A DNA stretch of 64,000 nt from Metallibacterium scheffleri (GTDB lineage Bacteria > Pseudomonadota > Gammaproteobacteria > Xanthomonadales > Rhodanobacteraceae), in NCBI RefSeq assembly GCF_002077135.1, contig NZ_LDOS01000002.1, forward strand, positions 496,001 through 560,000, written 5' to 3'. The notes under the pieces were generated by a model that searched no databases, was not told the origin of the DNA, and was given only the letters and a program-made list of their open reading frames with translations. Every line of letters begins with the position of its first letter. Positions within the stretch are counted from its first letter, which is position 1. The position numbers were made by a program, and so were the translations under genes. Positions 40,640-58,140 of the stretch are shown piece after piece.

Positions 40640-41736
40640 ACACCCCACACGCATCCGCCCACATCGCGCTGCTGCCCGGCGACGGCATCGGCCCCGAAGT
40701 CACCGCCGCGGCGGTGGCCTGTCTCGAAGCCGTGGCCGAAATCCACGGCTTCCAGCTGCGCTTCAGCGAGCATGCCATCGGCGGTGTCGCCATCGATGCC
40801 TGCGGCACGGCGCTGCCGGAGACCACGCGTGCCGCCTGCATCGCCAGTGACGCGGTGCTGCTGGGCGCGGTGGGCGGACCGAAGTGGTCCGACCCGCGCG
40901 CGCCGGTGCGCCCCGAGCAGGGTCTGCTGGCGCTGCGCGCGGCCATGGGGGTGTACGCCAACCTGCGCCCGGTGCAGGTGCATCCGCGCGCCGCGCAGTT
41001 CTCGCCGCTGCGGCTGGAAAAACTGCGCAATGTCGATCTGCTGTTCGTGCGCGAGCTGACTGGCGGCATCTACTTCGGCGCCAAGACCCGCGATGCCGCC
41101 GGCGCATCGGATCTGTGCAGTTACAGCGTGGCCGAGATCGAGCGCGTCTTGCGCCGCGGCTTCGCGCTGGCCAGGCAGCGCCGGCGCAAGCTGACCTCGG
41201 TGGACAAGGCCAACGTGATGGAGACCTCGCGCTTGTGGCGCGAGACCGCGCAGCGCCTCGCCGCAGAGTATCCCGACGTGCAGGTCGAGCACCAACTGGT
41301 CGATTCCATGGCCATGCTGTTGCTGACGCGCCCGGCCGATTTCGACGTGATCGTCAGCGAGAACCTGTTCGGCGACATCCTCACCGACGAGGCTGCCGCC
41401 ATCGCCGGCTCGCTGGGTCTGCTGCCGTCGGCCTCGCTGGGTGACGGCCCGCGCGGCCTGTACGAACCCATCCACGGTTCGGCGCCGGACATCGCCGGGC
41501 GCGGCATCGCCAATCCGGCCGGCGCCATTGCCAGCGCCGCGCTGCTGCTGCGGCATTCGCTGGGCATGCAGGTCGCCGCCGGCGCGCTGGAAAGCGCGTT
41601 GTGGCTGGCGCTGGACGAAGGCGTGCTGACCCCCGACCTGGGCGGCCATCACGGCACCGCCGCGCTCACCGATGCGGTGATCGGGCATCTGTGGTCGCAA
41701 TCGGCGGTGGACACGGCCGTGGTGGCGCGCGCATGA
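40636..41736 (+). CDS. leuB: 3-isopropylmalate dehydrogenase
   Basis: Oxidatively decarboxylates 3-isopropylmalate with NAD. The 366-residue protein shows [24 protein letters not shown], the substrate arginines in [10 protein letters not shown] and [26 protein letters not shown], and the metal aspartates and NAD loop in [20 protein letters not shown] and [17 protein letters not shown] overlaps at both ends tie it to leuD and ilvD. Confidence 0.97.
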
Positions 41737-43406
41737 GCGAGACATCCAGACCCCTGCGCAGCGACGCCATCAAGACCGGTCCTGACCGCGCGCCGGCGCG
41801 CGCCATGCTGCGCGCCACCGGCCTCGGCGACGCCGACCTGGCCAAGCCGCTGGTGGCGATCGTGCACACCTGGTCGAACGTGTCGCCGTGCAACCTCAAC
41901 CTGCGTGATCTGGCGCAGGCCGCCGCTGAAGGCGTGCGCGCGGCGGGCGGCACGCCGGTGGAGTTCAACACCATCGCGGTGACCGACGGCATCGCCATGG
42001 GCAGCAGCGGCATGCGCGCCTCGCTGGTGTCGCGCGAGGTGATCACCGATTCCATCGAGCTGGTGGTCGAGGGCCATTGCCTGGACGCCGCGCTGATCCT
42101 GTGCGGCTGCGACAAAACCATCCCCGCCGCGGCGATGGCGCTGGCGCGCATGAACCTGCCCGGGCTGGTGCTGTACGGCGGCAGCATCGCGCATGGCGTG
42201 CTCGGCGCGCGCCATCTCACCGTGCAGGACGTGTTCGAGGCGGTGGGCGCGCACGGTGCCGGCACGCTCGACGACGCCGGCCTGCGCGCGGTGGAAACCC
42301 ATGCCTGTCCAGGTGCCGGCGCCTGCGGCGGCCAGTTCACCGCCAACACCATGGCCATGGTGCTGACCGCGCTGGGCCTGTCGCTGCCGGGGACGAATGA
42401 TGTGCCGGCGACCGATCCGGCCAAACTCGATGCCGCGCGCCGCTGTGGCGCGCAGTTGATGCAGCTGCTGGCGCACGGCCCGTTGCCGCGCGAGGTGCTC
42501 ACGCCGGCCGCGTTGCGCAACGCTGCGCGCATGGTCGCGGCCACGGCGGGATCGACCAACGCCGTGCTGCACATGCTGGCGATCGCGCACGAGGCCGAGG
42601 TGCCGTTCACCCTGGAGGATTTCGAGACCGCCGCGCGCAGCACGCCGGTGATCGCCGACCTCAAGCCCGCCGGCCGCTACACCGCGGTCGAGCTGAGCGC
42701 CGCGGGCGGCACGCTCTGTGTCGCGCAGATGCTGCATGCGGCCGGCATGCTCGAGGATTCTCCCACGGTCAGCGGGCGCGGCCTGTTCGCGGAACTCGCT
42801 GCCGCGCCGCCGCCGCCGGCCGGGCAGGACGTGGTGCATCCGGTGTCGGCGCCATTGAAGCCGCGCGGCGGCTTCACCATCCTCTACGGCACGCTCGCGC
42901 CCGAGGGCTGCATCCTCAAGCTGGCCGGGGCGGGGCGCACGCATTTCACCGGCCCGGCGCGCGTGTTCGAGAACGAGATCGAAGCCTTCGCCGCGGTGCA
43001 GGCCGGCGTCATCCAGGCGGGCGATGTGGTGGTGATCCGCAACGAAGGCCCGGCCGGCGGTCCCGGCATGCGCGAGATGCTGGCGGTGACCGCGGCACTG
43101 GTCGGGCGCGGCCTGGGCGGCAGCGTGGCGCTGATCACCGATGGCCGCTTCAGTGGCGCCACGCACGGCGTGATGGTTGGCCACATCGCCCCGGAAGCCG
43201 CGCGTGGCGGGCCCATCGCCCTGCTGCGCGACGGCGACGTGGTGCTGATCGACGGTGATGCGCGGCGCATCGATGGCCCCGAGGATCTCGAATCACGCCG
43301 CGCAACCTGGGTGCCGCGCGAACCACCGGTGAAGCGCGGCGCGCTGGCCAAGTACGCGCACATGGTCGGCTCGGCCGCGCGCGGCGCCATCACCGAATCA
43401 TTTTGA
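41733..43406 (+). CDS. ilvD: Dihydroxy-acid dehydratase
   Basis: Makes 2-keto acids from dihydroxy acids in Val/Ile synthesis, using an iron-sulfur cluster. The 557-residue protein is the shorter IlvD form (E. coli has 616). Likely cluster cysteines are in SPCNLN (near 53), [10 protein letters not shown] (124-126) and [20 protein letters not shown] (near 192-198). [18 protein letters not shown] near the C-terminus is diagnostic for the IlvD/Edd family. Context in the leu-ilv operon excludes sugar-acid dehydratase roles as the main function. Confidence 0.96.
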
Positions 43407-43448
43407 GCCCATCCTTTCCCGCCCCACTTTCCAACGGAGACTCGCACC

Positions 43449-44492
43449 ATGAATCCCACACAGGAAGCCAGCATCGACGCCCTCAAGGGCCAGCGCATCG
43501 GCGTACTCGGTTACGGCAGCCAGGGCCGCGCGCACGCGCTGAACCTGCGCGATTCAGGCCTCGACGTGCGCGTCGGCCTGCGTCCCGGCGGCGCCACTGC
43601 GACGCAGGCCCGCGCCGATGGTTTCGCGGTCGCCGCGCCGGCGGAAGTGGTCGGCGGCAGTGATCTGGTGGCCGTGCTCACCCCGGACATGGTGCAGCCG
43701 CAGTTGTATCGCGAGGCCATCGCGCCGCATCTGCGCAAGGGTGGCGCGCTGCTGTTCGCGCACGGGCTCAACGTGCACTACGGCATGATCGATCCACGCG
43801 CCGACATCGACGTGATCCTGGTCGCGCCCAAGGGGCCGGGCGCGCTGGTGCGCCGCGAATACGAACGCGGCGCTGGCGTGCCATGCCTGTTCGCGGTGCA
43901 GCAGGACGCCAGCGGCCACGCGCGCGCGCGCGTGCTGGCCTACGCCGCCGGCATCGGCGGCGCGCGCACGCAACTGATAGAAACCAGCTTCCGCGAGGAA
44001 ACCGAAACCGATCTGTTCGGTGAGCAGGCGGTGCTGTGTGGCGGCGCCACCGAGTTGGTGGTGCAGGGCTTCGAGACCCTGGTCGAGGCCGGCTACCAGC
44101 CCGAGGTGGCGTATTACGAGTGCATGCACGAGCTCAAGCTCATCGTCGATCTGCTGTACGAGGGCGGTCTCGCGCAGATGCACAAGTACGTCTCCGAAAC
44201 CGCGCAATACGGTGATCTGACCCGCGGCCCGCGCGTGATCAACGCGGAGACGCGGCAGCGCATGCGCGAGGTGCTGACCGAGATCCAGGATGGCCGCTTC
44301 GCGCGCGAGTGGGTGGCCGAATACGCCGCCGGCAATCCGCATTACAAGGCACTCAAGCAGCGCGATCTCGAGCACCCCATCGAAAAAGTCGGCGCCGCGC
44401 TGCGTGCGCAGATGGGTTGGTTGCAGGCGCCCAAGGCCACGGTCAAGGGCGCGGCCGTCACGCCGATCAAAAACACCGGCACCGGTGGCTGA
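43449..44492 (+). CDS. ilvC: Ketol-acid reductoisomerase (class I)
   Basis: NADPH-dependent isomerisation and reduction of acetohydroxy acids. The 347-residue, class I length protein has the Rossmann loop [20 protein letters not shown] and then a single C-terminal knotted domain with metal ligands in [16 protein letters not shown] and [20 protein letters not shown]. In the Rossmann loop region VRVGLRPGG supplies the arginine for the NADPH phosphate. It is 42 bases after ilvD with its own GGAG ribosome site, the largest gap inside the operon. Confidence 0.97.
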
Positions 44493-44493
44493 G

Positions 44494-46176
44494 ATGGCCG
44501 ATACCGGAGCCATCCACAGCAGCGTGCGCACTGGCGCGCAGTGGCTGGTGGCGGCGCTGGAAGCCGAGGGCATCGACACGATCTTCGGTTATCCAGGTGG
44601 CGCCATCATGCCGGTGTACGACGCGCTGGTGGACAGCAAGTTGCGCCACATCCTGGTGCGCCACGAGCAGGGCGCGGCGCTGGCCGCCGATGGCTACGCG
44701 CGCGCCAGCGGACGCATCGGCGTGTGCCTGGCCACCTCGGGGCCGGGCGCGACCAACCTGCTCACCGGCATCGCCAACGCGTATCTCGATTCGGTGCCGA
44801 TGCTGGCCATCACCGGGCAGGTGGCCAGCGGGTTGATGGGTACCGACGCGTTCCAGGAGGTCGATATCTTCGGCATGAGTCTGCCGGTGGTGAAGCACAG
44901 TTTCATCGTGCGTCGCGCCGAGGACGTGGCCGCTACCGTGCACCAGGCCTGCGCCATCGCGCGCAGCGGGCGCCCGGGGCCGGTGCTGATCGACCTGCCC
45001 AAGGACATCGCGTTGACGCGCGCCACAGCGGGCGTCACGCAGCCGCAACCCGTCGCCGCGGCGCCGGCACCGGACGCCACCGCGCTGGCCGCGGCGCGCG
45101 CGTTACTGGCGCGCAGCGAACGTCCGCTGCTGTATGTGGGCGGCGGCGTCGGCATGGCGCGTGCCGAGGCCGCGTTGCGCGATTTCGTCGCCGTCACCGG
45201 CATGCCCTCGGTGTGCACGCTCAAGGGCCTCGGTGCGATCGACCCCGACGCACCCGGACACCTCGGCATGCTCGGCATGCACGGCAGTCCGGCGGCCAAT
45301 CACGCGGTGCAATCCTGCGACCTGCTGCTGGTGGTCGGGGCGCGCTTCGACGATCGCGCCACCGGCAAGCTGGATACCTTCGCGCCCGGCGCACGCGTGG
45401 TGCACATCGATGCCGATGCCGCCGAGATCGGCAAGCTGCGCAGCGCGCAGATCGCGCTGGCCGGCTGCATGCCGCAGGCGCTGGCGGCGCTGGCGCAAGC
45501 GCTGCCGATCGCGCCGTGGCGCGAGCACTGCGCGGCGCTGCGCGCGTTGTACGCCAACCGCTACGACGCGCCGGGCAGCGACATCTACGCGCCCGCGCTG
45601 CTGCGCGAGCTGTCGCTGGCCGCGGGTAATCAGGCCATCGTCAGTTGCGATGTCGGCCAGCACCAGATGTGGGTGGCACAGCACTGGCACATCCATTCAC
45701 CGCACGCGCACCTGACCAGCGGCGGCCTCGGCGCCATGGGCTACGGCCTGCCCGCGGCGCTGGGCGCGCAACTGGCGCGGCCCGATGCGTGCGTGATCTG
45801 CGTGACCGGCGACGGTTCGATCATGATGAACATCCAGGAGCTGGCCACCCTGCGTCGCTACGCCATCCCGGTGAAGATCGTGCTGCTCGACAATGCCTGC
45901 CTGGGCATGGTGCGGCAGTGGCAGGAGCTGTTTTTCGAGCAGCGCTACAGCGAAGTCGATCTGTCCGACAACCCCGACTTCGTCGCCCTGGCGCAGGCTT
46001 TCGGCATCGAGGCCTTCGGCATCGACGCGCGCGCGCAGGTGCCCGGCGCGATCCGGCGCCTGCTCGATGCGCGCGGCCCAATCCTGTGCCACGTGCGCAT
46101 CGATCCGCGCGCCAACGTCTGGCCGCTGGTGCCGCCGGGCAAGTCCAACGGCGAGATGATGGACTCCGCCGCATGA
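44494..46176 (+). CDS. ilvG: Acetolactate synthase large subunit (AHAS II type)
   Basis: Thiamine-diphosphate enzyme starting Val, Leu and Ile synthesis. The 560-residue protein has the catalytic glutamate in [18 protein letters not shown], the FAD-binding middle domain ([17 protein letters not shown]), and the ThDP motif [18 protein letters not shown]. Length and pairing with a short IlvM-like subunit fit isozyme II. It starts one base past the ilvC stop region and overlaps ilvM by ATGA. Confidence 0.95.
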
Positions 46177-46403
46177 TCCAGCGCCTGCACGTCACCCTGC
46201 TGGATGTCGAGGGCGCGTTGCAGCGCCTGCTGGGCACCGCCGAACGCCGCGGTTTCCACGTGCTGCAATTGCACGCCGAGGTCGGCGCCGGCGCCGTGTG
46301 CACGGTGGCGCTGACGCTCGAAGGCGCGCGCGATGCCGAGCTGCTGCGGCGCCAGCTCGAGCGCCTGCACGAGGTGCGCGAGGTGAGCCTTGCGCCGGAA
46401 TGA
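46173..46403 (+). CDS. ilvM: Acetolactate synthase small subunit (IlvM-like)
   Basis: A 76-residue single ACT-domain protein, starting [20 protein letters not shown], that should bind and activate the IlvG large subunit. It is much shorter than IlvH/IlvN (about 160 residues), lacking their C-terminal domain, so feedback by valine may be weak as for AHAS II. It is the last gene of the operon; a long hairpin follows after about 100 bases. Threonine deaminase (ilvA), which often follows, is absent here. Confidence 0.9.
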
Positions 46404-46761
46404 GCGGGGCATCCCTGCACGCTTGCGCGGTGTGCGCGTGAACGCTTGATTGTTTCCGTTCGCCCGCGAGAGAGGTGGAGGGTTCGCGTTTGCACGGTTG
46501 CACGCCGTGCATCAACGATGGTTCTTGCGAGACCACGCAAGAACCATCGGTTCATGCACGACACGCGACGATGCAAGAGCGCCTCTGCATGCGGTGCTGC
46601 GAGTCATCCTTGCGGAGTGAGTGGGGGAAAGCGCGCGCCGTGCAAACGCGCCGGCATCAAAGCCAAGTCACGCCGAGCCAGAACCCAGCACGGAGTCTGG
46701 CGCGATCATGCGTCGACCCTGCGCAAGGCGCGCGCCGCGCGCCGGGACTAAACTGCGCGGC
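46404..46761. other. Intergenic region after the leu-ilv operon
   Basis: About 360 bases without a recognisable gene. Its main feature is a long hairpin at 46506-46560; the rest shows nothing clear. A promoter for the DUF1289 gene should lie in its right part but none is obvious. Confidence 0.5.
46506..46560. repeat. Long two-part hairpin after ilvM
   Basis: A perfect 14-bp inverted repeat (CGATGGTTCTTGCG and CGCAAGAACCATCG, loop AGACCA, 46516-46549) is extended by a further perfect 7-bp outer pair (CGTGCAT at 46506-46512, ATGCACG at 46554-46560) across a small internal loop. It lies about 100 bases past the operon end and has no T-run on either side. It could be a 3'-end stabiliser, a Rho-dependent boundary, or a dispersed palindromic repeat. 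Confidence 0.8.
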
Positions 46762-46956
46762 ATGTCCGTGGACACGCTGCCCGTTACCTCGACGCCCTGC
46801 ATCGGCGTGTGTCGCCTCGATCGCGACAAGCTGTGCATGGGTTGCCGGCGCACGCTGGGCGAGATCGCGGCGTGGTCGCGTCTCGATGAAACCGAGCGCC
46901 TGCGCCTGATGCGCGAGGTGTTGCCGCGGCGCCGGATCGGCCATGTCCGCGCCTGA
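46762..46956 (+). CDS. DUF1289 cysteine-rich small protein
   Basis: A 64-residue protein with four cysteines in the pattern PCIGVCRLDRDKLCMGCRRT, followed by a TLGEIAAWSRLDETERLRL helix. This is the DUF1289 family, whose cysteines may bind a metal; function unknown. It overlaps the Nudix gene by 14 bases, and the Nudix gene overlaps the sulfurtransferase gene, so the three form one operon. Confidence 0.9.
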   Translation: MSVDTLPVTSTPCIGVCRLDRDKLCMGCRRTLGEIAAWSRLDETERLRLMREVLPRRRIGHVRA

Positions 46957-47608
46957 CGACGCTGCGCCGCGCGGTGCCGAGCCTGCCTGCACGCTGGACG
47001 CCGAATTGTGCGCGCCACGCTCGTCGTTGCGCGCGGCGCTGCATCCGCTGGATACGCCACCGCAACCGCCGGGCTGGAACCACGCCGATCTCGTTGACGT
47101 GCTGGGCGATGTCGCGTTGACGCCGGCCGCCGTGCTGGTGCCGCTGTGCGCGCGCGCCAGTGGCCTCAATGTGCTGTTCACGCGCCGCGTCAGTGGCCTG
47201 CGCCAGCACGCCGGGCAGGTGAGCTTTCCCGGCGGGCGCAGCGATGCCGGCGACCGCGATGCGCTGGCCACCGCGCTGCGCGAGAGCGCCGAGGAAATCG
47301 GCCTGCACGCCGCCAGCGCGGAGCCGCTGGGTTATCTGGATTGTTTCGACACCATCAGCGGCTACCGCGTGACGCCGGTGGTGGCGCGCATCGCCGCCGA
47401 TTTCGTGGCGCGGCCCAATGCCGACGAGGTGGCCGAGGTGTTCGAGGTTCCGCTGGCCTGGCTCGGCGATCCGCAAAATCTGCACGCGCGCCGGGTCGAT
47501 TATCGTGGCCGCGTGCGTACCATCTACGAGTTCAAACCCGGTGGTCATCTGATCTGGGGCGCCACCGCCGGTATTCTGGTCAACCTGCTGGCACGCATGA
47601 GGTCATGA
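46943..47608 (+). CDS. nudL: CoA-type Nudix hydrolase
   Basis: A 221-residue Nudix protein of the CoA-diphosphatase type, which cuts CoA or its derivatives to phosphopantetheine and 3',5'-ADP. Between an N-terminal extension and the C-terminal domain it shows QVSFPGGRSDAGDRDAL and the catalytic helix ATALRESAEEIGL; the combination with upstream LFTRRVSGLRQHAGQ is typical of NudL/PCD1. The gene lies between DUF1289 and sseA with overlaps on both sides. Confidence 0.88.
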   Translation: MSAPDDAAPRGAEPACTLDAELCAPRSSLRAALHPLDTPPQPPGWNHADLVDVLGDVALTPAAVLVPLCARASGLNVLFTRRVSGLRQHAGQVSFPGGRSDAGDRDALATALRESAEEIGLHAASAEPLGYLDCFDTISGYRVTPVVARIAADFVARPNADEVAEVFEVPLAWLGDPQNLHARRVDYRGRVRTIYEFKPGGHLIWGATAGILVNLLARMRS

Positions 47609-48498
47609 TGACGATTCCCGAGACTTTGATCGATGCCGCCGCACTGGCGGCCCTGCCTGCGAGCGCGGTGCGGGTGGTCGATTGCCGCTTTGATCTGGCC
47701 GACAGCGAGGCCGGGGCGCGCGCGTATCGCGCCGGACACATCCCCGGCGCGGTCTATGCGAATCTCGATCGCGACCTGTCCGATTTGTCGCGCACAGCGC
47801 AGGGCCTGGGCCGGCATCCGCTGCCGTCCGCCGCTGCGTTTCGCGCCACGCTGCAACGCTGGGACTGGCGCCCGGGCCTGCCGGTGGTGGCCTATGACGG
47901 CCACGCCGGCGCGATCGGTGCCGCGCGTCTGTGGTGGATGCTGCGCAGCCTCGGCCAACCCGCGGCGGTGCTCGACGGCGGCTGGCAGGCGTGGCTCGCC
48001 GCGGGTCTGCCGCAAGCAACCGGCGCTGCGCCTGGCGCGGCATTCTCGGATGCCGCCGCGTCGGACCAGGATGCCGGGGCCGCCATGCCCGCGCGCGAGT
48101 TCGACGCTGCCGCGCTCGTCGACACCGATGCGCTGCGTCGGCATCTGGCCGCGGGCAGCGTGGCACTGATCGATGCGCGCGCGCCCGAGCGCTACCGCGG
48201 CGAGGTCGAGCCCATCGATCGCGTCGGCGGCCACATCCCCGGCGCCGGCAATCGTCCCTACGTGCAGAACCTGCAGGCCGACGGCCGTTTCAAGCCCGCC
48301 GCGCAATTGCGCGCCGAATGGCTGGCCGTGCTCGGCGCTGCCACACCCGCCAGCGTGGTGCATTCCTGTGGCTCCGGCGTATCCGCCTGCCACAACCTGC
48401 TGGCCATGGAGCACGCCGGCCTGCGCGGCTCGCGCCTGTACGCGCCCTCGTGGAGCGGCTGGGTCAGTGATCCACAGCGGCCGGTGGCGAAGGGGTGA
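47605..48498 (+). CDS. sseA: Thiosulfate/3-mercaptopyruvate sulfurtransferase
   Basis: Transfers sulfane sulfur from mercaptopyruvate or thiosulfate to an acceptor. The 297-residue protein has two rhodanese domains; the first (about 1-150) is inactive (YDGHAGAIGAARLW), the second holds the catalytic cysteine in HSCGSGVSACHNLLAM. The CGSGVSA loop resembles the mercaptopyruvate type (CGSGVTA) more than rhodanese. It also shows RAPERYRGEVEPIDRVGGHI typical of the family. Two adjacent ATGs (47605, 47608) overlap the nudL stop. Confidence 0.9.
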   Translation: MMTIPETLIDAAALAALPASAVRVVDCRFDLADSEAGARAYRAGHIPGAVYANLDRDLSDLSRTAQGLGRHPLPSAAAFRATLQRWDWRPGLPVVAYDGHAGAIGAARLWWMLRSLGQPAAVLDGGWQAWLAAGLPQATGAAPGAAFSDAAASDQDAGAAMPAREFDAAALVDTDALRRHLAAGSVALIDARAPERYRGEVEPIDRVGGHIPGAGNRPYVQNLQADGRFKPAAQLRAEWLAVLGAATPASVVHSCGSGVSACHNLLAMEHAGLRGSRLYAPSWSGWVSDPQRPVAKG

Positions 48499-48532
48499 AG
48501 CGCGATCACACGCAATTTATCAGGGGGGAGCT

Positions 48533-49474
48533 ATGAAATTCTGGGTTGGCGTAACTGATAACGATTGGTTCAAGTTTCTTGCTGCTCGCAAGCTTGATGA
48601 GGTGAACTTTTGGCAGCCCAGTTCCCGACCACTATTCTCAGATGCGCCAACGGGGTTGCCATTCTTGTTCAAATTGAAGCGTCCGCATAACCACATCGCT
48701 GGTGGTGGTTTTTATGTCGCTCATACCACGTTACCTGTGACCTTGGCTTGGGAAATCTTCGGCGAAAAAAATGGTGCTGCGTCGTTCGACCAATTGCAGT
48801 CCTTGCTCGGCCCACTGCGGCAGCACCAAGCAGCGACGAACGAGATCGGCTGCACAGTACTTTCCAGTCCATTCTTCTTCCCGCAATCTGAGTGGATTAA
48901 AGATCCAGCGGGTTGGGCTCAGAACATTGTGCGCGGCAAGATGTATGACGACAGTACGACAGATGCGCGAGCCATCTGGAATGACCTCCAGCCACGTTTG
49001 GCTGCAGCGCTGAACAACGCGCCCGCTGGCGGACCACTCGATGGCCTCCGCGTCGAAGAGCCTGTGCAAAAGTTTGGTACACCATTACTGTTCAAGCCAC
49101 GCTTGGGCCAAGCGTCTTTCCGGGTATTAGTTACCGATGCTTACAAGCGTCGTTGCGCCATTACTGGCGAGAACACTTTGGTTGCGCTTGAGGCTGCCCA
49201 CATTGTGCCTTACGCGAGCGATGGTAGTTCGCACGACATCAGAAATGGCCTGCTGTTGCGGGCCGACTTCCACCGGCTCTTCGATGCAGGACTTGTCAGC
49301 ATCACTCCTGAGATGAAGATCAAGGTTAGCCGCAGAATTCGCGAGACTTGGTTTAACGGCAAGGTCTACTACCGATTAAACGATCAGCCGCTTTCAGCGG
49401 TGCCTGACAGCATCGCGCAGCGCCCAGACCCGGATCGTTTGAACTGGCACTACAACAACGTTTTCCAAGCTTAG
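48533..49474 (+). CDS. HNH endonuclease with PUA/EVE-like N-terminus
   Basis: A 313-residue nuclease, probably a modification-dependent restriction enzyme. Residues 1-105 (FWVGVTDNDWFKFLAARK, NFWQPSSRPLF, LPFLFKLKRPHN, GGGFYVAHTTLP) look like a PUA/EVE-type fold, a known reader of modified bases. Residues about 200-255 form an HNH domain: CAITGENTLVALEAAHIVPY, then HDIRNGLLL and DFHRLFD supply the metal histidines and asparagine. The gene is plainly less GC-rich than its neighbours, with a strong GGGGGAG ribosome site, suggesting recent transfer. No methylase gene is nearby. A dCTPase-like gene begins ten bases after its stop. Function is inferred from domain types. Confidence 0.8.
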   Translation: MKFWVGVTDNDWFKFLAARKLDEVNFWQPSSRPLFSDAPTGLPFLFKLKRPHNHIAGGGFYVAHTTLPVTLAWEIFGEKNGAASFDQLQSLLGPLRQHQAATNEIGCTVLSSPFFFPQSEWIKDPAGWAQNIVRGKMYDDSTTDARAIWNDLQPRLAAALNNAPAGGPLDGLRVEEPVQKFGTPLLFKPRLGQASFRVLVTDAYKRRCAITGENTLVALEAAHIVPYASDGSSHDIRNGLLLRADFHRLFDAGLVSITPEMKIKVSRRIRETWFNGKVYYRLNDQPLSAVPDSIAQRPDPDRLNWHYNNVFQA

Positions 49475-49483
49475 GAGCGCACT

Positions 49484-49834
49484 GTGGCCGTGATCGCCGA
49501 TGGTTTGCTCAAGGAGCTCCTCGACTTTCGCGAGGAACGCGACTGGCGTCAGTTCCACACGCCCAGGAATCTTTCCACGACGTTATGCATCGAAGCCGCT
49601 GAGTTGCTCGAGTGCTTCCAGTGGGCTGCTGACTCTGAGCTATCCGAGGTTGTAAGACGAGAGCGTGTCGCGATCGAAGATGAGATCGCTGATGTCGCGA
49701 TCGTGCTGTCCTACCTTTGCCACGATTTGGGACTGTCACTAGACGACGCGGTGCGCTGCAAGTTGGACAAAAATCGCGCCAAGTATCCAGTGGATAAAGC
49801 TCGAGGAAACGCCACAAAATATGATCGCCTTTGA
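49484..49834 (+). CDS. MazG-like dNTP pyrophosphatase (DCTPP1/RS21-C6 type)
   Basis: A 116-residue all-alpha NTP pyrophosphohydrolase. It aligns well by eye with human dCTP pyrophosphatase 1: LLDFREERDWRQFHTPRNLS, CIEAAELLECFQW with the ExxE metal site (37-40), EDEIADVAIVLSYL with ExxD (67-70), then KNRAKYPVDKARGNATKY. DCTPP1 removes dCTP and prefers 5-modified dCTPs. GTG 49484 follows AGGAG six bases away; the AGGAG overlaps the stop of the HNH gene, so the two are translationally linked. Same low-GC patch as the nuclease. The link to modified cytosine is an inference. Confidence 0.85.
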   Translation: MAVIADGLLKELLDFREERDWRQFHTPRNLSTTLCIEAAELLECFQWAADSELSEVVRRERVAIEDEIADVAIVLSYLCHDLGLSLDDAVRCKLDKNRAKYPVDKARGNATKYDRL

Positions 49835-49944
49835 GGCCATACGTCTCACCGCTTCCGATCTCTATCGATAGTGTTCGCTTCGTAATTTCTGGCGGCTAAG
49901 TGTCGTACATCACATCGGCGATGGCGGCGCTGCGCGCGACCGAA

Positions 49945-50229
49945 CTACAAGGTCGCATCCCGAAAGGCTTTCAGGACAGCGTTTATGCGGGTTTGCCAGC
50001 CGCTGCCCTGCGCGCGATACCAGGCCAGTACTTCCTTGTCCACGCGCAGCGCAATCTGCTCTTTGCGTTCTTCGGCTGTCTTGGCGGGTCGTCCGCGCTT
50101 GGCACGCAACTCGGTCAGACCCTTGTGGGCGGTGGCGTCAGCCCAATAGGCCAAGGTTGCTGCCTTGCTGGCGCGGTCGTAGGGCACGTCAGGCTTGCGG
50201 GTACGCGTGGAAGTACGCTTCTCGTTCAT
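49945..50229 (-). CDS. brnA: BrnA-family antitoxin
   Basis: A 94-residue DNA-binding antitoxin. A lysine/arginine-rich N-terminus is followed by the ribbon-helix-helix part, RPAKTAEERKEQIALRVDKE and VLAWYRAQGSGWQTRINAVL, the BrnA signature. It neutralises BrnT and, with it, represses the operon. It overlaps the 3' end of brnT by 41 bases, so the toxin gene comes first as usual for this family. Confidence 0.9.
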   Translation of the reverse strand: MNEKRTSTRTRKPDVPYDRASKAATLAYWADATAHKGLTELRAKRGRPAKTAEERKEQIALRVDKEVLAWYRAQGSGWQTRINAVLKAFRDATL

Positions 50230-50461
50230 GGGCTGTGGCTACTCGGCAGGAAATCAATCGCGGACCATCCTCGCGGTCGGTCCACACCACGACAACGACA
50301 CGCCCGTGGGTCCATCCCAGACTCACCAGTCGTTGCTCTGCGTAGGCTCCGCGGTCGTCTTCGCGGGTGAGCATGGGGCCGTCAAAAGCCGCCATGCAGT
50401 CGGGCAGGTCGATCTTGTGCTTGCGCAGATTCTTTTGACGCTTGGCCGAGTCGTGGCTCAT
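50189..50461 (-). CDS. brnT: BrnT-family ribonuclease toxin
   Basis: A 90-residue RelE-like toxin of the BrnT family: KRQKNLRKHKIDLPDCMAAF, LTREDDRGAYAEQRLVSLGW, VVVVVWTDREDGPRLISCRV and TAHEREAYFHA. BrnT cleaves RNA and stops growth when BrnA is lost. ATG 50461 is used; an in-frame TTG at 50467 is possible. A palindromic operator lies immediately upstream. The frame is intact, with the conserved His, Arg and Glu residues of the fold present. Confidence 0.9.
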   Translation of the reverse strand: MSHDSAKRQKNLRKHKIDLPDCMAAFDGPMLTREDDRGAYAEQRLVSLGWTHGRVVVVVWTDREDGPRLISCRVATAHEREAYFHAYPQA

Positions 50462-50468
50462 TCGCAAT

Positions 50469-50486
50469 TTAATGTATATGCATTAA
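50469..50486 (-). promoter_or_regulatory. Operator/promoter of brnTA
   Basis: TTAATG and CATTAA arms flank six A/T-rich bases, making an 18-base palindrome eight bases before the brnT ATG. It overlaps a possible -10 (TATACA). Its position fits autorepression by the BrnT-BrnA complex. A separate interrupted hairpin (two 7-bp perfect segments) lies at 50492-50529. Confidence 0.6.
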
Positions 50487-50730
50487 GTGCGCTGCGCAAG
50501 TCCAGTCAACCTGGACTCTTGCTGCGCAGATTTCCCGACTCGCGGCGCACCGGCGCATTTACGATTTCGCCAAGCGCGTCATGTAACGCGCTGTAACGCG
50601 AACCGCAACGTTCCGATCTTCGCCAAGCCAGGGATGGCCGCACAACAAGTCCCATTGCTTATTGCAGGTTTCCCAGTGGCACACTGCGCGCGCCGCACGT
50701 CGCGGCTGCGGTCGAGCCAGGGGGCTGCCC

Positions 50731-51270
50731 ATGTACGTACTCATGCTTCCCGGTCTGTGGAATTCCGGTCCGCAGCACTGGCAAACGCTGTGGCAAGCCG
50801 GGCACGCGGACTGGAAGCGGGTGCTGCAGCGCGACTGGCAAACCCCGGACCGCGCCGAGTGGGTGGAAACGCTGCGCCTGAACGTCGCCGCGTGCCGACG
50901 CCCGCCGGTGCTGGTCGCGCACAGCCTGGGCTGCGCGCTGGTTGCGCACTGGGCGCAGGCGGCCAACCGCGGCGCGATCGCGGGCGCCTTCCTGGTCGCG
51001 CCGAGCGATGTCGATGCGCCCGGTTATCCGCCGGGCACGACGGGGTTCGTGCCCATGCCGATGCACCGGCTGCACTTTCCATCGCTGCTGGTGGCCAGCC
51101 GCAACGATGCGTACTGCTCCGTGGCGCGGGCCAAGGCGTTCGCCTCCGCCTGGGGCAGCGAGCTCGCCTGGGTGGGCGAAGCCGGACACATCAACGCCGA
51201 TGCCGGTTTCGGCGCGTGGCCCGCGGGCGAGCGCCTGCTGCTGGATTTCTGCGCGCGCGTGCAGGGCTGA
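50731..51270 (+). CDS. RBBP9/YdeN-type serine hydrolase
   Basis: A small alpha/beta hydrolase of 179 residues. The nucleophile serine is in LVAHSLGCALVAHW, with the aspartate in SRNDAYCSVARA and the histidine in GEAGHINADAGFG; the start MYVLMLPGLWNSGPQHWQ is typical of the RBBP9/YdeN family. Substrate unknown. ATG 50731 follows AGGGGG; the upstream frame to 50662 is not needed. It stands alone, to the right of the accessory patch. Confidence 0.88.
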   Translation: MYVLMLPGLWNSGPQHWQTLWQAGHADWKRVLQRDWQTPDRAEWVETLRLNVAACRRPPVLVAHSLGCALVAHWAQAANRGAIAGAFLVAPSDVDAPGYPPGTTGFVPMPMHRLHFPSLLVASRNDAYCSVARAKAFASAWGSELAWVGEAGHINADAGFGAWPAGERLLLDFCARVQG

Positions 51271-51312
51271 GAGGCCGATCGCAGCAGCGCCGGCTTTGGC
51301 GCGGTGCGCGAT

Positions 51313-52797
51313 TCAATATCCGTGCCGGCGCGGCCACCAGCGCGCACTGCGCTGCCGCTGCCGCAGCGCGGCGCGCAGTTCGGCATCGGGATGCCGCGCC
51401 AGTTGCGCGCGCTGCTGCGGCGTGAGGGTGATGTCGGTGCCAAGGCCGGCGCGCAGCAGCATCACGTCCATGCGCAGCAAACGCGACGGCCGTGCCTGCG
51501 CGGCGTGCGTGATCAGCGCCGCGCCCAGCCACGCCAGCGTGCCGCGCGACAGTGCCTGGCGGTCGCCGTAAATGTCGGGCACGCCGCGCGCCAGCGCATT
51601 GCCGACGCGCAACGTGCGCAGCGGCCACGCGGTGTGCACGGTGAGCGCGTCGCGACAGGCCTGCGCGAGATCGGCCTCGGGCAGCACCGCGCCGTGCAGC
51701 AGCGCGGGGATCAGCGCGCTGCGCGGTCGTTGCGCCCACGCCACGCAGGCAGCGGCGGCACGCAGCGCGGGATGCGCAGCACGCCAGGCTTGTTGCCACG
51801 CCGCGGGCTGCGGGCATTGCCGCGCCTGCGCCAGGCACAGCAGCGCGCGCACCGCGCCCAACCGCGCGCGTGCGGTGTCGCGCTGCAGCCAGCCGGCCAG
51901 CGGCGTGCGCAATGCATCCTCGAGCGCGTCGGGCATGGCCAGCAGTGCCGTGGCAGCCGGTGCACCCAGCACGTCGTCGTCGAGTGCGCGCGCCAGCGCC
52001 GGTGCCAGCGTTTGCATGCGCTGCACCCCGGCGCAGCGCGCGGCTGCGGGCAGACGCGCGACGTTGAACGCCCAGGCGATGTCGTCGGCGCGCTCGGCAT
52101 ACGCGTGCGTCGCCAATGCCGTCAGCGCCGCGGATTTGACCGCGCGCTCGGCTTCGGTCACCACCGGCAGCAGTCGATCCAGTGGCGGCTGGTACAGGGT
52201 TTCGCGCAGCGCCGAATGCGCGGCGGGCGCGTCGATGCGCGCCAGCATCTGCACGGCAAACAGGCGCGCGGCGTTGACCACTTCGGGCGGCTCGGCCAGC
52301 AGCGCGCGCAGGCCGGGGATGGCGGCGCTGCCGAGTGCGGCGATGCGCGGTTCAACCTCGGCGTGCTCGGCCAGGTCGTGGCACCAGCGCGCGATCTGCG
52401 CGGCGTCGGTGTGCGTGCCGGGTAATGCCTGCGCCGCGCTGCGTACGGCGTGCGCCGGATGCGCCAGCAGCGCGCTGCGCGCCGCCTCGCGTGGCGCATC
52501 GGCCGGCATGCGTGCCAGCGCGCGCACGATCTCCAGTCCCTGCACCACATCGCCGGGATGCGCCAGCGCGCACGCCGCCAGCGCCGCCGCGGCGGCGGAA
52601 TCGCCACGCTTGCCCAGCGCGATGATCGCGCTCATGCGCGCCGCGGACAGCGGATGCTGCAAGGCCAGGATCAGGCGCTCGCCGTAAGGCCGCGCGGCCC
52701 AGGCGGCGAAATCGGCGCCGCAATGCGGACAGCGCGTGTCCTGCGCGCCGACCTCGGCGTGGCATTCGGGGCAGAACCAGGTGGACTGCTCGCTCAT
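51313..52797 (-). CDS. Zinc-ribbon and HEAT-like repeat protein
   Basis: A 494-residue protein of unknown function. The N-terminus has a rubredoxin-like zinc ribbon, FCPECHAEVGAQDTRCPHCG, followed by many alanine/arginine-rich helical pairs resembling HEAT repeats to the C-terminus. No signal peptide or membrane segment is visible, so it is probably a cytosolic scaffold. ATG 52797 overlaps the stop of the dynamin-like gene (ATGA), so the two proteins are likely made together and may interact. The alanine-rich composition makes homology by eye uncertain. Confidence 0.75.
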   Translation of the reverse strand: MSEQSTWFCPECHAEVGAQDTRCPHCGADFAAWAARPYGERLILALQHPLSAARMSAIIALGKRGDSAAAAALAACALAHPGDVVQGLEIVRALARMPADAPREAARSALLAHPAHAVRSAAQALPGTHTDAAQIARWCHDLAEHAEVEPRIAALGSAAIPGLRALLAEPPEVVNAARLFAVQMLARIDAPAAHSALRETLYQPPLDRLLPVVTEAERAVKSAALTALATHAYAERADDIAWAFNVARLPAAARCAGVQRMQTLAPALARALDDDVLGAPAATALLAMPDALEDALRTPLAGWLQRDTARARLGAVRALLCLAQARQCPQPAAWQQAWRAAHPALRAAAACVAWAQRPRSALIPALLHGAVLPEADLAQACRDALTVHTAWPLRTLRVGNALARGVPDIYGDRQALSRGTLAWLGAALITHAAQARPSRLLRMDVMLLRAGLGTDITLTPQQRAQLARHPDAELRAALRQRQRSARWWPRRHGY

Positions 52798-54620
52798 GAC
52801 AGCGAGGACGGACTGTTGCCCAGCGCGGTGGCGAGGCGCGTGATGTCCTGCGCCAGTTGCACGGGATCGGCCGCGCCGGCGCTTTGCCCGGCGCGCAACT
52901 GGCGCTGGCGCGCGGTGACGTGGGCATCCAGCCAGGCGTGCAGCGCCGCGGCGTAAGCACGGCAGGCTTGCTGCAGCGCCGGGCCGCATGAGCGCTGCAG
53001 GCGCTGGCGTTGCCACGCGCGGCCCAGCGTACCCAGCGTGCGCGGCGGTGGTGCAGGCCACGGCGTGGGCTGCCAGTCGAACGTGGGCAGCGCGGCGTGG
53101 TCGTCGCCGGCCTCGGCTGTCAGCGTGGCGTGCGTTTGCCGTGCGAGCTGGTGCGCGATATCCGCGGCCAGCGTGCCCAGCGCGGCGGCGCCCATGCGCG
53201 CCAGCGCGGCGCGGCGCAGCAACGCGGCGGGTGCGCGTTCGGAGAATTCGGCAATGGCGTGATGCTGCGCGCGCGTGGCGGTCTCCAGCGCCAGCAGCGG
53301 CGTGCTATCCAGCGTCGCGGTGTTGCCGGCGTCCTGTTCGCGTGCGGCCAGGCGCAGGCTGGCCAGGATCTGCCGGCCCAGCACTAGCGCACGCGTGCCG
53401 CTGCGTGCGGCGGCATCCACATGCAGACTGGCCAGCAGCGGCTGCAGCTCGCGCTCGCGCCAAGCGCGCAGTTCATCGCGCCGCGCCGGCACGCTGCTCA
53501 GCGCATCGATTTGCACCGTGGTGTTCAGCGCGGCGCCCAGCTGGCTGGCGAGGTAGGTGCTTTGTTCGCGCACGGCGTCGCTGTCGACCAGATCTGATTT
53601 GGTCAGCAGCACGCGCAGCGTCGCGCCGCTGTCGAGCACGGCTTGCGCCAGATCGCGCTCCAGCTCGGTCAGCGTGGCGCTGGCGTCGATCAGCAGCAGG
53701 CCCAGATCGCTGCGCGGCAGATAATCGAGCGCGGCGGCACGTGCGTGGCCTTGGAGCGCGCCGAGGCCGGGCGTGTCGGTGAACACCGCCTGCGCCGCCC
53801 ACGGCAGCGCGCCGAGGCCGACACGCACCTCGGCCAGACGCTCGCGGTTGCCGGGATTGCCCTGCTCGCTGATGTGCTGCGCGAGTTCGTCCAGGGGGCG
53901 CTGCTCGCGGCGGCCATCGAGATAATCCAGCTCCAGCGCCGGCTCGGCATCGGCCAGCAGACGCGTGGTGACGGCGGTGACCGGCACCACGCCCACCGGC
54001 AGCAGCGCGCGTTCGATCAGCGCATTGAGCAGCGAGGACTTGCCGCTGCTGACGCGACCGACCACGGCCACCTCGACGCGCCCGCTGCGCGCGGCCAGCG
54101 CGGCGACGCGCGCGCGGTACTCGCCGAGGCGATAGCGCTGCACCAGCTCCAGCAGAAGCGCGCCGAGCGTGTCGTCGGGTGCCGGCTGCGCCAGTGTTTC
54201 CTGGATGCGCAGCCCGTCCTGCATGCCTTCGAGCAGGGCGCTGATTTCCGCGGCCAGTGCGCGGCAGGCGGCGGCGCCGTCCTCGTCCAGCGCGCCGAAT
54301 CCGGCCAGATGCGCGGGGCGCAGTTCCAGCGCGACGTTGCGCAGCAGGGTGATCTGCGTGTCCAGCGCCCAGCGCGGATCCAGCTCGCCGTGGCGTGGCG
54401 TGGCGATGCCCTGCGCGCGCAGGAAGCGGCGCAGGCTGCCGCGCAGACGCTGCAGGGCGGCTTGCAGCGCGGCAGCATCGGCCGCGGACAGTGCCGTGCG
54501 GTAGCGCGGAAACACCTCGTCGCCGCGCGCCTGCGCGCCCAGCAGCAGCGCGTCGGTCAGCGTCTGCTCGATATGCGCCAGGCTTTGCACGAGATGACGG
54601 CGTTGGTTGTCGCTGAGCAC
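52794..54620 (-). CDS. Dynamin-like GTPase
   Basis: A 608-residue large GTPase. After about 180 helical residues the G domain shows G1 GRVSSGKSSLLNAL, the switch threonine in VTAVTTRLL, G3 TDTPGLGAL and G4 TKSDLVD. The remainder is alpha-helical, as in dynamin-type stalks, without a predicted transmembrane segment. Bacterial dynamins remodel or protect membranes, or follow DNA replication; which applies here is unknown. The GTG start has a perfect AGGAGG ribosome site five bases away. It is divergent from recC with a 151-base gap and overlaps the zinc-ribbon gene by four bases. Confidence 0.82.
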   Translation of the reverse strand: MLSDNQRRHLVQSLAHIEQTLTDALLLGAQARGDEVFPRYRTALSAADAAALQAALQRLRGSLRRFLRAQGIATPRHGELDPRWALDTQITLLRNVALELRPAHLAGFGALDEDGAAACRALAAEISALLEGMQDGLRIQETLAQPAPDDTLGALLLELVQRYRLGEYRARVAALAARSGRVEVAVVGRVSSGKSSLLNALIERALLPVGVVPVTAVTTRLLADAEPALELDYLDGRREQRPLDELAQHISEQGNPGNRERLAEVRVGLGALPWAAQAVFTDTPGLGALQGHARAAALDYLPRSDLGLLLIDASATLTELERDLAQAVLDSGATLRVLLTKSDLVDSDAVREQSTYLASQLGAALNTTVQIDALSSVPARRDELRAWRERELQPLLASLHVDAAARSGTRALVLGRQILASLRLAAREQDAGNTATLDSTPLLALETATRAQHHAIAEFSERAPAALLRRAALARMGAAALGTLAADIAHQLARQTHATLTAEAGDDHAALPTFDWQPTPWPAPPPRTLGTLGRAWQRQRLQRSCGPALQQACRAYAAALHAWLDAHVTARQRQLRAGQSAGAADPVQLAQDITRLATALGNSPSSLS

Positions 54621-54771
54621 GAAAGCCTCCTGCGGCGCGCATCATCGCAGTCTTTGCGACGGCCGCGACGTAAACTTTCCCTGCTTGGAGTCGCGATCAG
54701 GATGCGGGTTCCGCGCAGGGGTGCGCATGGCCCCGCGCGTGACCGCCCAGGCATCATCCCCAGGAACCCAC

Positions 54772-57700
54772 ATGCCCGGTATGTACGTTTATCGCGCCAG
54801 CCGCATCGAAGCACTGGCCGAACAACTCGCACAGCAGCTCGCCGCGCAGCCGCCGGCCGCGGTGCTGGCGCCGCGCACCGTGGTGGTGGCGCACCTCGGC
54901 ATGAAGCGCTGGTTGCTGGGCGCGCTGGCGCGGCGCCGCGGCAGCGACGGCAGCCCCGGCATCGCCGCCAATCTGCACCTGCTGTTGCCCGGCGAATGGT
55001 GGCTGCGTCTGGGCGATGCGCTGCTGGGCAGCGATGCCGATCCGGCATGGCAGCGCGAAGTGCTGCGCTGGCGCATTCTCGATCGGCTCGATGCGCGTGA
55101 CGTTGCCGGCGCACTGCGGCGTTTTCTCGACGCCGCGCCGCCGCGTCGCCGCTGGCAACTGGCCGAACATCTGGCGCGGCTGTACGGCGAATATCAGATG
55201 TATCGCCCCGACTGGCTGCTGGCCTGGGCCGCGGGTGACGACACGCCGCGCGATGCCGACTGGCAGGCCGCGCTGTGGCGGCGCCTGCTGGCCGGCAGCG
55301 CCGCGCAACCGCGCGTGCAGCGCAGCCAACGCGTGCTCGAAATGTTGGCGGCGGCGCGCGCTGGGCACGCCGAGCCGGTGCATGTGTTCGGCGTCAGCCA
55401 TTTGCCGCCGGTGCTGCTGCAGGCACTGCAACTGGCAGCGCGCACGCGCGCGGTGCATGTGTATTTCCCCGATCCCTGCCGCGAGCTGTGGGACGACCTG
55501 CGCAGCCAGCGCGCGCTGCTGCGCGCCGGCGATAAGGCCGCGGCGCAGCACTATGAAACCGGCCATCCACTACTGGCCAGCCTCGGCCGCATCGGCCAGG
55601 ATTTCGCCCTCGCGCTGAATGCCGACGTCAGCGCGCAGGATTGGCGTGACCCGCTGGACGAGAGCGACGCGCACACCGCCGCCGCGCCGCTGCTGCAGCG
55701 CGTGCAGGACAGCCTGCGCCGGCTCGCGCCGCAGCTGGCCGGCGCGCCGCTGGATGCGCAATCGTGCGCCGATTCCAGCCTGCGCGTGCACGCCTGTCAT
55801 GGCCGCCTGCGCGAGCTGGAAGTGCTGCGCGACGCGCTGCTGGCGTTGCGCGTGCAGCACGACGATCTGGAGCCGCGCCAGATCGTGGTCATGGCGCCTG
55901 ACATCCAGGCCTACGCGCCGCTGTTGCCGGCGGTGTTCGGCACGCCCGGGCAGTGGCACGACGCGGCGTTGCCGTATCACATCGCCGACGTGCCGCTGGC
56001 CGCCACGCACACGCTGTATGCGGCATGGCGGCAACTGCTGCACCTGGCGCAGGCACGCTGCACGCTGGCCGAAGTGCTGGACTTGCTCGACGTGCCCGCA
56101 TTGGCGCGTCGCTTCGGGCTGGATGGCGCCGCGCGCACGCGCATGGCGCACTGGTTGCATGAGGCGCACGTGGCCTGGGCGTTGGACGCGGCGATGAAAC
56201 CCGCGTTCGGCGCGCCGGCGGAGGACCTGCATACCTTCGCCTTCGGTCTGGATCGGCTCATCGCCGGCTGGCTGCTGGGCGACGACGCACCGGGACGCAT
56301 GCTGCGCGCCGCACATGCGCGCGGGCAGGCGATCGTGCCGCTGCTTGCCGCCGCTGGCAGCGAACTGCCGTTGCTGGCCGGACTGGCGCGGCTGCTCGAT
56401 GAGCTGGCGCGCTGGCACGCCGCGGCGTCCATGCAGCACGACGGTGCCGGCTGGAGCGCGTGGCTGGCGCAGCGCATCGATGCGTGCTTCGACGCCGACG
56501 ACGAGGATGCGGACGCGCAGGCCGCGCTCGGGCAATTGCGCCGGCTGGCCGCGCAGCCCGGCGCCGAGCTAGCCGCGGCAGGTGTGGAGCGGGCGTTCGC
56601 GTGGGAGGTGATCAGCGCGCAGCAGTGCGCGGCGCTGGATGAGATTCCCGCGCGCCAGCCCTTCGTCGCCAATGGCATCGCGTTTTGCGGCATGGTGCCG
56701 CAGCGCACGATTCCCTATCGCGTGGTCGCGTTGCTGGGCTTGAACGAGGGTGCGTATCCGCGCAACAGCCCGCGCTCGTCGCTGGACCTGATCCTGCGCC
56801 ATCCGCGCGCGGGTGATCGCAGCGCGCTGCAGGAAGACCGCTATCTGTTTCTGGAGGCATTGATGGCAGCGCGCACGGCCTTGCACCTGAGCTACGTCGC
56901 CGAAGACCCCGCGCAAGGCAGCCTGCGCAATCCCGCCGCGCCGCTGGCCGAGTTGCTGGCGTTCCTGGATGACGCACATGGCCTGGCGGGCGGCGACGCG
57001 GCACGGGCGTGGTGCGTGCGGCACGCGTTGCAGCCCTTCGCCGCGGTGTATTTCGAGCAGGCCGACGCCGCCTGGCGGCCCCATCCGGCGCTGCGTTCGT
57101 TCGCCGTGGCGTATGCCGGGGTCGACGGCGCCGGCCACGCGCCGCCCGGCGCGGCGCCGCTGCTGCCGCACGCGGGCTTGTCCGCGCCGGCACTGGATGC
57201 CGATGCCGCAAGCCTTGCGCAACTGCGCGCGTTTCTGCGCAAGCCGGCGCAGGCCACGGCGCGGCAGATGCTGGGCATCGTGCTGCCCGACGGCGACGGC
57301 GACGCCGATGCCGGCGCCGACGAGCCGCTGACGCCGCGCACCGAACCGCGCCAGCGTGTGCCGGCGCGGTTGCTGGAGCACGCACTGGCGCAGGGGCAGG
57401 CCACGCTGCCCGCGCACGCGCCAGACTGGCTGGCGCGCAGCGGCCTGCTGCCCGCGGGCGCGATCGGCGCGCTGGCCTGGCGCGATCTGCGCGCGCCGGT
57501 CACTGCCGCACTGGCCCTGCTGCACGGGCATCCCTGCGCGCAGGCGCCACTTGTGGAAGTCGACTGCAGGGTGCGCCTGGATGACGGCAACGTGCTTGGC
57601 GGCAGCGTGGCGGCACGGCGCGACGCCGCGGGCCGGTACTGGCTGCTGCGTGTGGAAACGCGCAAGACGCTGGACTTCAGCGTGCGCCTGCCGCTGTGGC

Positions 57701-58140
57701 TGGACTGGGCCGCGCTGGCGCTGAGCGTGCCGGCGGCGCAACTCGGCGGCTGCGTGTTGCTGCAGGTACATGGCGCCAGCGCGGAGATCGACGCGCTGGC
57801 GGCCAACGCCAGCAGCGATGCGACGCTGCTGCGTGCCGGCATCGCGCGACTGTGCGCGCTGCGTGATGACGTGCTGCACGCGCGGCGCTGGTACTTTCCG
57901 GCGACCGCCTGGGCCGTGGCCGAGTCCGCGCCCGAGTCGCGCAGCGCGCGCGCGCGCAGTGCCTGGGAAGGCAATCAGCAGAGCACCGGCGAACGCGACT
58001 ACGCGCCGGCCTACGCCGCCTTGCTGGCGCGCGGCCGCGACTGGATCGCCGAGCCGCAGACGTGGCGGGACTTCGTCGCGCAGGCCGGCGCGCTGGCCGC
58101 GCTGGTGGGTCTGCAGGCGCAGGAGCCGGCCGATGCGTGA
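54772..58140 (+). CDS. recC: Exodeoxyribonuclease V subunit RecC
   Basis: RecC splits the strands and recognises Chi in the RecBCD complex for double-strand break repair and degradation of foreign DNA. The 1,122 residues equal the E. coli length. The N-terminal helicase-like domain starts YVYRASRIEALAEQLAQQL; conserved phrases include LPGEWWLRLGDALLG, VHVFGVSHLPPVLLQAL and FCGMVPQRTIPYRVVALLGL with NEGAYPRNSPRSSLDLI. Helicase ATP motifs are degenerate, as expected. ATG 54772 follows AGGA; ATG 54781 is an alternative. It overlaps recB by eight bases. Confidence 0.95.
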   Translation: MPGMYVYRASRIEALAEQLAQQLAAQPPAAVLAPRTVVVAHLGMKRWLLGALARRRGSDGSPGIAANLHLLLPGEWWLRLGDALLGSDADPAWQREVLRWRILDRLDARDVAGALRRFLDAAPPRRRWQLAEHLARLYGEYQMYRPDWLLAWAAGDDTPRDADWQAALWRRLLAGSAAQPRVQRSQRVLEMLAAARAGHAEPVHVFGVSHLPPVLLQALQLAARTRAVHVYFPDPCRELWDDLRSQRALLRAGDKAAAQHYETGHPLLASLGRIGQDFALALNADVSAQDWRDPLDESDAHTAAAPLLQRVQDSLRRLAPQLAGAPLDAQSCADSSLRVHACHGRLRELEVLRDALLALRVQHDDLEPRQIVVMAPDIQAYAPLLPAVFGTPGQWHDAALPYHIADVPLAATHTLYAAWRQLLHLAQARCTLAEVLDLLDVPALARRFGLDGAARTRMAHWLHEAHVAWALDAAMKPAFGAPAEDLHTFAFGLDRLIAGWLLGDDAPGRMLRAAHARGQAIVPLLAAAGSELPLLAGLARLLDELARWHAAASMQHDGAGWSAWLAQRIDACFDADDEDADAQAALGQLRRLAAQPGAELAAAGVERAFAWEVISAQQCAALDEIPARQPFVANGIAFCGMVPQRTIPYRVVALLGLNEGAYPRNSPRSSLDLILRHPRAGDRSALQEDRYLFLEALMAARTALHLSYVAEDPAQGSLRNPAAPLAELLAFLDDAHGLAGGDAARAWCVRHALQPFAAVYFEQADAAWRPHPALRSFAVAYAGVDGAGHAPPGAAPLLPHAGLSAPALDADAASLAQLRAFLRKPAQATARQMLGIVLPDGDGDADAGADEPLTPRTEPRQRVPARLLEHALAQGQATLPAHAPDWLARSGLLPAGAIGALAWRDLRAPVTAALALLHGHPCAQAPLVEVDCRVRLDDGNVLGGSVAARRDAAGRYWLLRVETRKTLDFSVRLPLWLDWAALALSVPAAQLGGCVLLQVHGASAEIDALAANASSDATLLRAGIARLCALRDDVLHARRWYFPATAWAVAESAPESRSARARSAWEGNQQSTGERDYAPAYAALLARGRDWIAEPQTWRDFVAQAGALAALVGLQAQEPADA

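Follow-up and report, generated by a model that had tools for sequence, protein, structure and literature searches.

Why should a nuclease that may read modified bases in DNA have, as its immediate neighbour, an enzyme resembling a dCTP pyrophosphatase? This arrangement occurs in a 64,000-nucleotide stretch of the Metallibacterium scheffleri genome (hereafter the window; the host genome, G000, is 3.76 Mb). An HNH nuclease gene (48533..49474, + strand) encodes 313 amino acids with an ASCH/PUA-like domain and an HNH domain, and is followed by a gene with a GTG start (49484..49834, + strand) for a 116-residue DCTPP1-like NTP pyrophosphatase (MazG-like, PF12643; here called MazG). That these two genes stand side by side, as the first-pass annotation had claimed, is borne out by the gene calls and domain matches. 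The same annotation described overlapping translation signals, which is correct for the signals in that AGGAG, a Shine-Dalgarno-like motif read from the sequence as the predicted site of the MazG gene (49473..49477, + strand), spans the nuclease stop codon; the genes themselves lie on the same strand 9 nt apart. Both are confirmed to fall within a less GC-rich patch, bounded by a rhodanese-like gene on the left (47605..48498, + strand; Rhodanese match) and a serine hydrolase gene on the right (50662..51270, + strand; Ser_hydrolase, E 4.6e-59), with a GC content of about 52-61% against 65-78% in the other parts of the profiled region (40000-58000). The patch also holds genes for the antitoxin BrnA (49945..50229, - strand; PF14384, E 8.5e-19) and the toxin BrnT (50189..50467, - strand; PF04365, E 5.8e-21), which we regard as context outside the module. 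Comparison of six proteins of the locus with Pfam gave no methyltransferase match, and scans for promoters and terminators gave no excess over shuffles.

What kind of nuclease is this? The N-terminal domain (48533..49027, + strand; about residues 1-165), a putative modified-base reader, is predicted to have a PUA-superfamily fold. The earlier description of this part as PUA/EVE-like therefore stands at the level of the superfamily, and the EVE-HNH enzyme VcaM4I (PDB 6yex) is the top match for the whole predicted chain, but the closest subclass appears to be ASCH rather than EVE. The C-terminal part (49100..49474, + strand; about residues 190-313) is assigned as HNH by an HNH_2 match above the cut-off (E 9.1e-14), by conservation and by similarity to the HNH region of VcaM4I, the only region in which the two proteins are alike in sequence (E 3.2e-12). 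Across 52 rows, H223 and N238 of the HNH domain and E23, N25, F26, W27 and K47 of the N-terminal domain are invariant, and H247 is nearly so. VcaM4I is described as a 5mC/5hmC-dependent enzyme that binds both bases and restricts T4gt (PMC7897488). The window nuclease differs from it and from other EVE-HNH enzymes in an N-terminus that appears nearer to ASCH and in the adjoining pyrophosphatase gene, and from the SRA-HNH enzyme TagI (PDB 6ghs) in its reader, which in TagI is an SRA domain. Taken together, these comparisons of sequence and predicted structure suggest that the protein is most likely a type IV-like, modification-dependent nuclease. Assignment as a phosphorothioate-dependent restriction endonuclease (NCBIfam NF045808) was considered and rejected, the match reaching 65.8 bits against a curated cut-off of 180 bits and extending over residues 191-312 only. 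Among phage records there was no relative covering 80% of the nuclease, and 11 records matched the HNH part only.

The second protein matches RS21-C6/DCTPP1 (E 1.8e-21) and 4qgp (E 2.8e-23) over nearly its whole length. When mapped by alignment to human DCTPP1 and to the residues named in PMC4491611, the metal ligands ExxE...ExxD (Glu63, Glu66, Glu95 and Asp98) are kept as E37, E40, E67 and D70, and Trp47 and Trp73 are kept as W21 and W47, whereas His38 and Tyr102 are replaced by L12 and V74. According to that source, human DCTPP1 can hydrolyse 5-methyl-dCTP and reduces the amount of it in cells, and docking places the Trp pair against 5-methylcytosine and puts His38 and Tyr102 in the substrate pocket as well (PMC4491611). 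The likeness to DCTPP1 noted in the first-pass annotation is thus real, with the four metal ligands and both tryptophans in common and two pocket residues different; because of these two replacements we call the protein DCTPP1-like and not DCTPP1. It is further distinguished from DCTPP1 and 4qgp by the nuclease gene that its own gene adjoins. There is no second match to this MazG in its own genome at E 1e-5, and no PADLOC model matched it or the MazGs of two loci discussed below (L190 and L210).

Is the pairing peculiar to this locus? Relatives of the nuclease from genomes, plasmids and viral contigs gave 95 loci (0.71 Mb), a sample that leans towards close relatives because its contig set is the best 80 of 423. 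A MazG gene on the same strand adjoins the nuclease gene in 28 of the 95 (25 downstream, 3 upstream); L099, with the order MazG, helicase, nuclease, is counted in the 29 loci that have a MazG and not in the 28. By source, MazG is absent from all 6 whole-genome loci and all 4 plasmid loci and present at 28 of the best 80 contigs and 1 of 5 viral loci; in all, 66 of the 95 have none within the DNA stretch examined. Pairing falls with identity to the window nuclease, from 13 of 15 loci at 55% or more, through 7 of 20 at 50-55%, to 8 of 59 below 50% (bins that total 94, L031 having no identity value and L099 not being counted as paired). In 22 of the 25 downstream pairs the MazG start, as assigned by a simple gene caller, falls between -31 and +28 nt from the nuclease end; at L046 and L052 it lies some 120-200 nt past the nuclease, and for L052 and L061 the caller chose another frame. 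The same gene was reached twice in L022/L085 and in L023/L109. Titles of paired records name Deltaproteobacteria, Beta- and Gammaproteobacteria and their kin, Flavobacteriales, Nitrospira, Nitrospinales, Bryobacterales, Rubrobacteraceae and Krumholzibacteriota.

Viewed from the other side, DCTPP1-like MazGs are few per genome: 9 matches were found in 8 of 12 nuclease-bearing genomes, and in 5 genomes one of these matches is, by its coordinates, the neighbour of the nuclease. None of 39 MazG loci taken from whole genomes has this nuclease type within the locus (mostly 3.3 kb, some less). Since these background loci are short, the group 'not beside this nuclease' includes L120, which is the MazG of a helicase and VcaM4I-like row in G003, and L162, whose upstream side is a contig end. 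The 95-locus survey led us to set aside the idea of chance neighbours. Confinement to the genus of the window was likewise discarded, with pairs present in other phyla and no full-length relative of the nuclease in 12 other genomes of the genus. The neighbourhood survey proposed in the first-pass annotation has accordingly found recurrent pairing, in several phyla, in both gene orders and with separate MazG lineages, and the assignment of the two genes as a recurrent module is well supported.

How often did the partnership arise? In the nuclease tree, from which L031 (broken) and L116 (below the cut-off) are excluded, the no-MazG label requires 16 changes (10 forced by starred branches) and downstream pairing requires 13 (8 forced), counts that do not tell gain from loss; the label is clustered, with none of 500 shuffles as low. 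The MazG tree is built on 113 columns, with weak deep branches and unsure fine branching. There, 21 of the 24 rows in the clade of the window MazG are paired (support 90/85, not starred), and of the three others two are beside household genes (L163 and L164) and one is the MazG at a contig end (L162). Elsewhere in this tree are a second paired group (L069, L079, L086 and L096) and single pairs (L046, L064, L072 and L084), and the labels require 5 changes for downstream pairs (3 forced) and 4 for upstream ones (2 forced). Given that paired MazGs are scattered over the tree, the two genes seem to have been brought together on more than one occasion, with one version of the pair inherited as a unit. 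The MazGs of this dedicated clade also share features of their own. All 21 keep the metal ligands and both tryptophans, and all 21 have Leu or Val at the Tyr102 position, which is Tyr in 37 of the 39 MazGs not beside this nuclease (L099 being in no group of this count); R16, R28, A48, Y77 and H80 are further marks of the clade, and the His38 equivalent is kept in none of the MazG groups compared. These residues suggest a specialised pocket.

The genomic setting of the pair is variable. Of 13 genomes of the genus, 10 contain DNA that matches the rhodanese gene, its own genome among them; the serine hydrolase gene has full-length or nearly full-length matches in G009 and G012 and short ones only elsewhere. 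In G009 (L154) the borders are the same and BrnT and BrnA, 96% and 94% identical, are at the same site, and in place of the pair there are a frame with a sub-threshold ParE-like match, an NYN gene, an isochorismatase gene and a TfoX_N gene. The site in G012 (L155) has a pectate-lyase-like gene and lacks BrnT and BrnA. Three genomes of the genus therefore have three different contents at the site that in the window spans 48499-50661, with BrnT and BrnA common to two of them. Because the contents differ in G009 and G012, the pair looks, from these two comparisons, like one exchangeable unit. Defence genes are found near its relatives: among the matches listed (25 of 257 families), neighbours of MazG-bearing loci match PADLOC models at E <=1e-10 for type I methyltransferases, a type III restriction enzyme, AriA, HEC-01A, SoFic and AbiLi. 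Household genes are also among these neighbours, the scan having covered 73 of 101 frames that were chosen by hand, mostly by dropping short ones, under a simple longest-frame rule by which some may not be genes. The matches agree with the defence context that had been suggested for the pair.

DCTPP1-like MazGs also keep company with other HNH nucleases that carry putative readers. In a family with a reader fold closest to the YTH domain, such a MazG is directly upstream of the nuclease in 10 of 12 viral loci (L194-L197 and L216-L221), and that YTH domain is described as a 6mA sensor (PMC7897488). No nuclease of this YTH-like-HNH family turned up at E 1e-40 in 291 genomes from the class to which G432 belongs, a negative that is uninformative in a search run without a positive genome as control. 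On a Priestia aryabhattai plasmid (L210:840-4746) a row consists of mutT, an MrcB_N protein with a weak HNH match, MazG and a Schlafen-type helicase. The HNH match is below the Pfam cut-off in the YTH-like family (L190 and L191) and in the MrcB_N protein, and above it in a Nocardiopsis relative. Within the genus of the window, G003 has a row (L224:1625-4915) of MazG, a Schlafen group 3 (DUF2075) helicase and a VcaM4I homologue. This row and the window pair have in common a DCTPP1-like MazG and a reader-HNH nuclease, but the row has a third gene and another reader subclass, and its MazG (L120) is outside the clade of the window MazG. None of four further VcaM4I-type loci has a MazG.

What, then, might the two proteins do together? 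Our preferred reading, to which we give a probability of about 0.42, is that they form a compact anti-phage module in which the pyrophosphatase guards the host; from the sequences and structural models we infer the modification dependence, the substrate and the protective role. The ASCH-like PUA-superfamily domain would flip out a modified base for inspection, and cutting of the DNA that bears it would fall to the HNH domain. MazG would split modified dNTPs of the free pool by hydrolysis into the monophosphate and pyrophosphate, with 5-modified dCTP as the likeliest substrate, whether these nucleotides came from salvage of cut phage DNA, from phage synthesis or from damage. It would in this way keep modified nucleotides out of host DNA, so that the host would not become a target of its own nuclease, and would take the place of the protective methyltransferase of ordinary restriction. 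In favour we count the domains and folds, the recurrent pairing (the 28 loci and L099), its multiple origins, the near-exclusive clade with its signature residues and its conserved metal ligands and tryptophans, the variable site, the other reader-HNH partners (YTH-like, MrcB_N and the VcaM4I homologue) and the published biochemistry of DCTPP1 and VcaM4I. Against host protection, or against a story of cytosine only, we count the 66 loci without MazG, the further VcaM4I-type loci without it, the YTH-like partners, which would imply 6mA in that branch, the loss of His38 and Tyr102, and the many DCTPP1-like MazGs that occur without such a nuclease. The 66 loci mean that strict host protection is not needed everywhere. 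A last point against is that 6 of the 13 nuclease-bearing genomes searched have a C5-methyltransferase (PF00145), the pair being present in two of these six (G426 and G436); PF00145 was not found in G000. This speaks against generic 5mC as the mark in such genomes. Were both genes active in them, the mark could not be 5mC in all contexts, and 5hmC or a narrow sequence context would be likelier.

The closest rival is that MazG starves the phage. Here the enzyme would destroy the modified dCTP pool of the phage, so that a phage that modifies its DNA would be cut by the nuclease and one that does not would lie open to ordinary restriction. The same gene data speak for it, and sequence cannot separate it from protection of the host. 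One pair (L021) is on a contig of a viral collection, as are the YTH-like analogues, which fits a role in excluding other phages. DCTPP1-like MazGs are also common without a nuclease and may therefore act by themselves. An enzyme that works alone, however, has no need of close coupling to a nuclease, and we consider this explanation rather unlikely.

Another possibility is that MazG is a general housecleaning or dNTP-depleting part of defence, which would remove oxidised or canonical dNTPs, would be interchangeable among nucleases and Schlafen-type helicases, and would have a substrate unrelated to the base recognised by the nuclease. Removal of 5-OH-dCTP has been ascribed to a bacterial MazG (PMC3855555), the readers of the partner nucleases differ in kind, and Schlafen group 3 helicase sequence adjoins 7 of the 39 genome MazG loci not beside this nuclease. 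The window MazG, by contrast, belongs to a near-exclusively paired clade with signature residues of its own, and the Pfam scan found no helicase among its neighbours; we judge this second alternative unlikely. Mere clustering of two defence or housekeeping genes that do not cooperate is very improbable, for although pairs have defence-model matches among their neighbours and both genes also occur apart, MazG is on the nuclease strand in 29 of 29 loci, the two genes are mostly immediate neighbours across short gaps, and several MazG lineages and both orders are involved.

Returning to the guarding of the host, a bolder form of it would have a modular and widespread class of operons for defence, each combining an HNH nuclease that reads modifications with a dNTP pyrophosphatase that protects the nucleotide pool and stands in for a methyltransferase. 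In the window the partner enzyme would then foretell the target, the ASCH-like reader recognising 5-modified cytosine and the dedicated clade of MazGs being adapted to the corresponding dCTP. This generalisation is tentative, with the odds against it. If true, type IV restriction would gain a second, nucleotide-level layer, in which marked DNA is cut and marked building blocks are excluded; a set of MazG-like genes so far without assignment would acquire a function, and bacterial immunity would be tied to the family of DCTPP1; and what ASCH-HNH nucleases recognise in DNA could be tested directly by way of the partner enzyme's substrate. Both kinds of protein are known, and what seems new is the coupling of a type IV-like nuclease to a partner that would act on the nucleotide pool. 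Among the listed titles and abstract beginnings of open-licence papers, we found no account of a DCTPP1-like MazG paired with a nuclease. Lutz et al. reportedly used an architecture-guided screen in 2019. MutT proteins have the Nudix fold. The term 'MazG' is absent from the main text of a survey of EVE proteins (PMC7641849), in which SauUSI homologues are drawn with adjacent MutT homologues. That arrangement likewise sets a nucleotide pyrophosphohydrolase beside a restriction enzyme, with a different nuclease and a pyrophosphohydrolase of another fold.

Several other arrangements were seen. A DCTPP1-like MazG adjoins or lies close to a Schlafen group 3 helicase, in some cases together with an HNH nuclease, at L064, L069, L084, L096, L099, L120, L122, L123, L166, L204, L212, L213 and L214, and the two may constitute a defence system of their own. 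At L035:4914-6908 the gene that comes after a relative of the window nuclease (60% identity) is not MazG but a helicase matching the PADLOC candidate PDC-S41 (E 1.6e-284). Window-type and VcaM4I-like nucleases are next to or near each other at L073, L079, L086 and L109, giving two reader subclasses per locus. Finally, among the MazG records inspected by region (5 of 20 from plasmids and 2 of 15 from phages), Vibrio phage 10N.286.55.A5_PE003 (L215:1687-2830) has a gene for a 274-residue HNH protein that overlaps a MazG-like gene, beside genes noted as HEPN and restriction enzyme.
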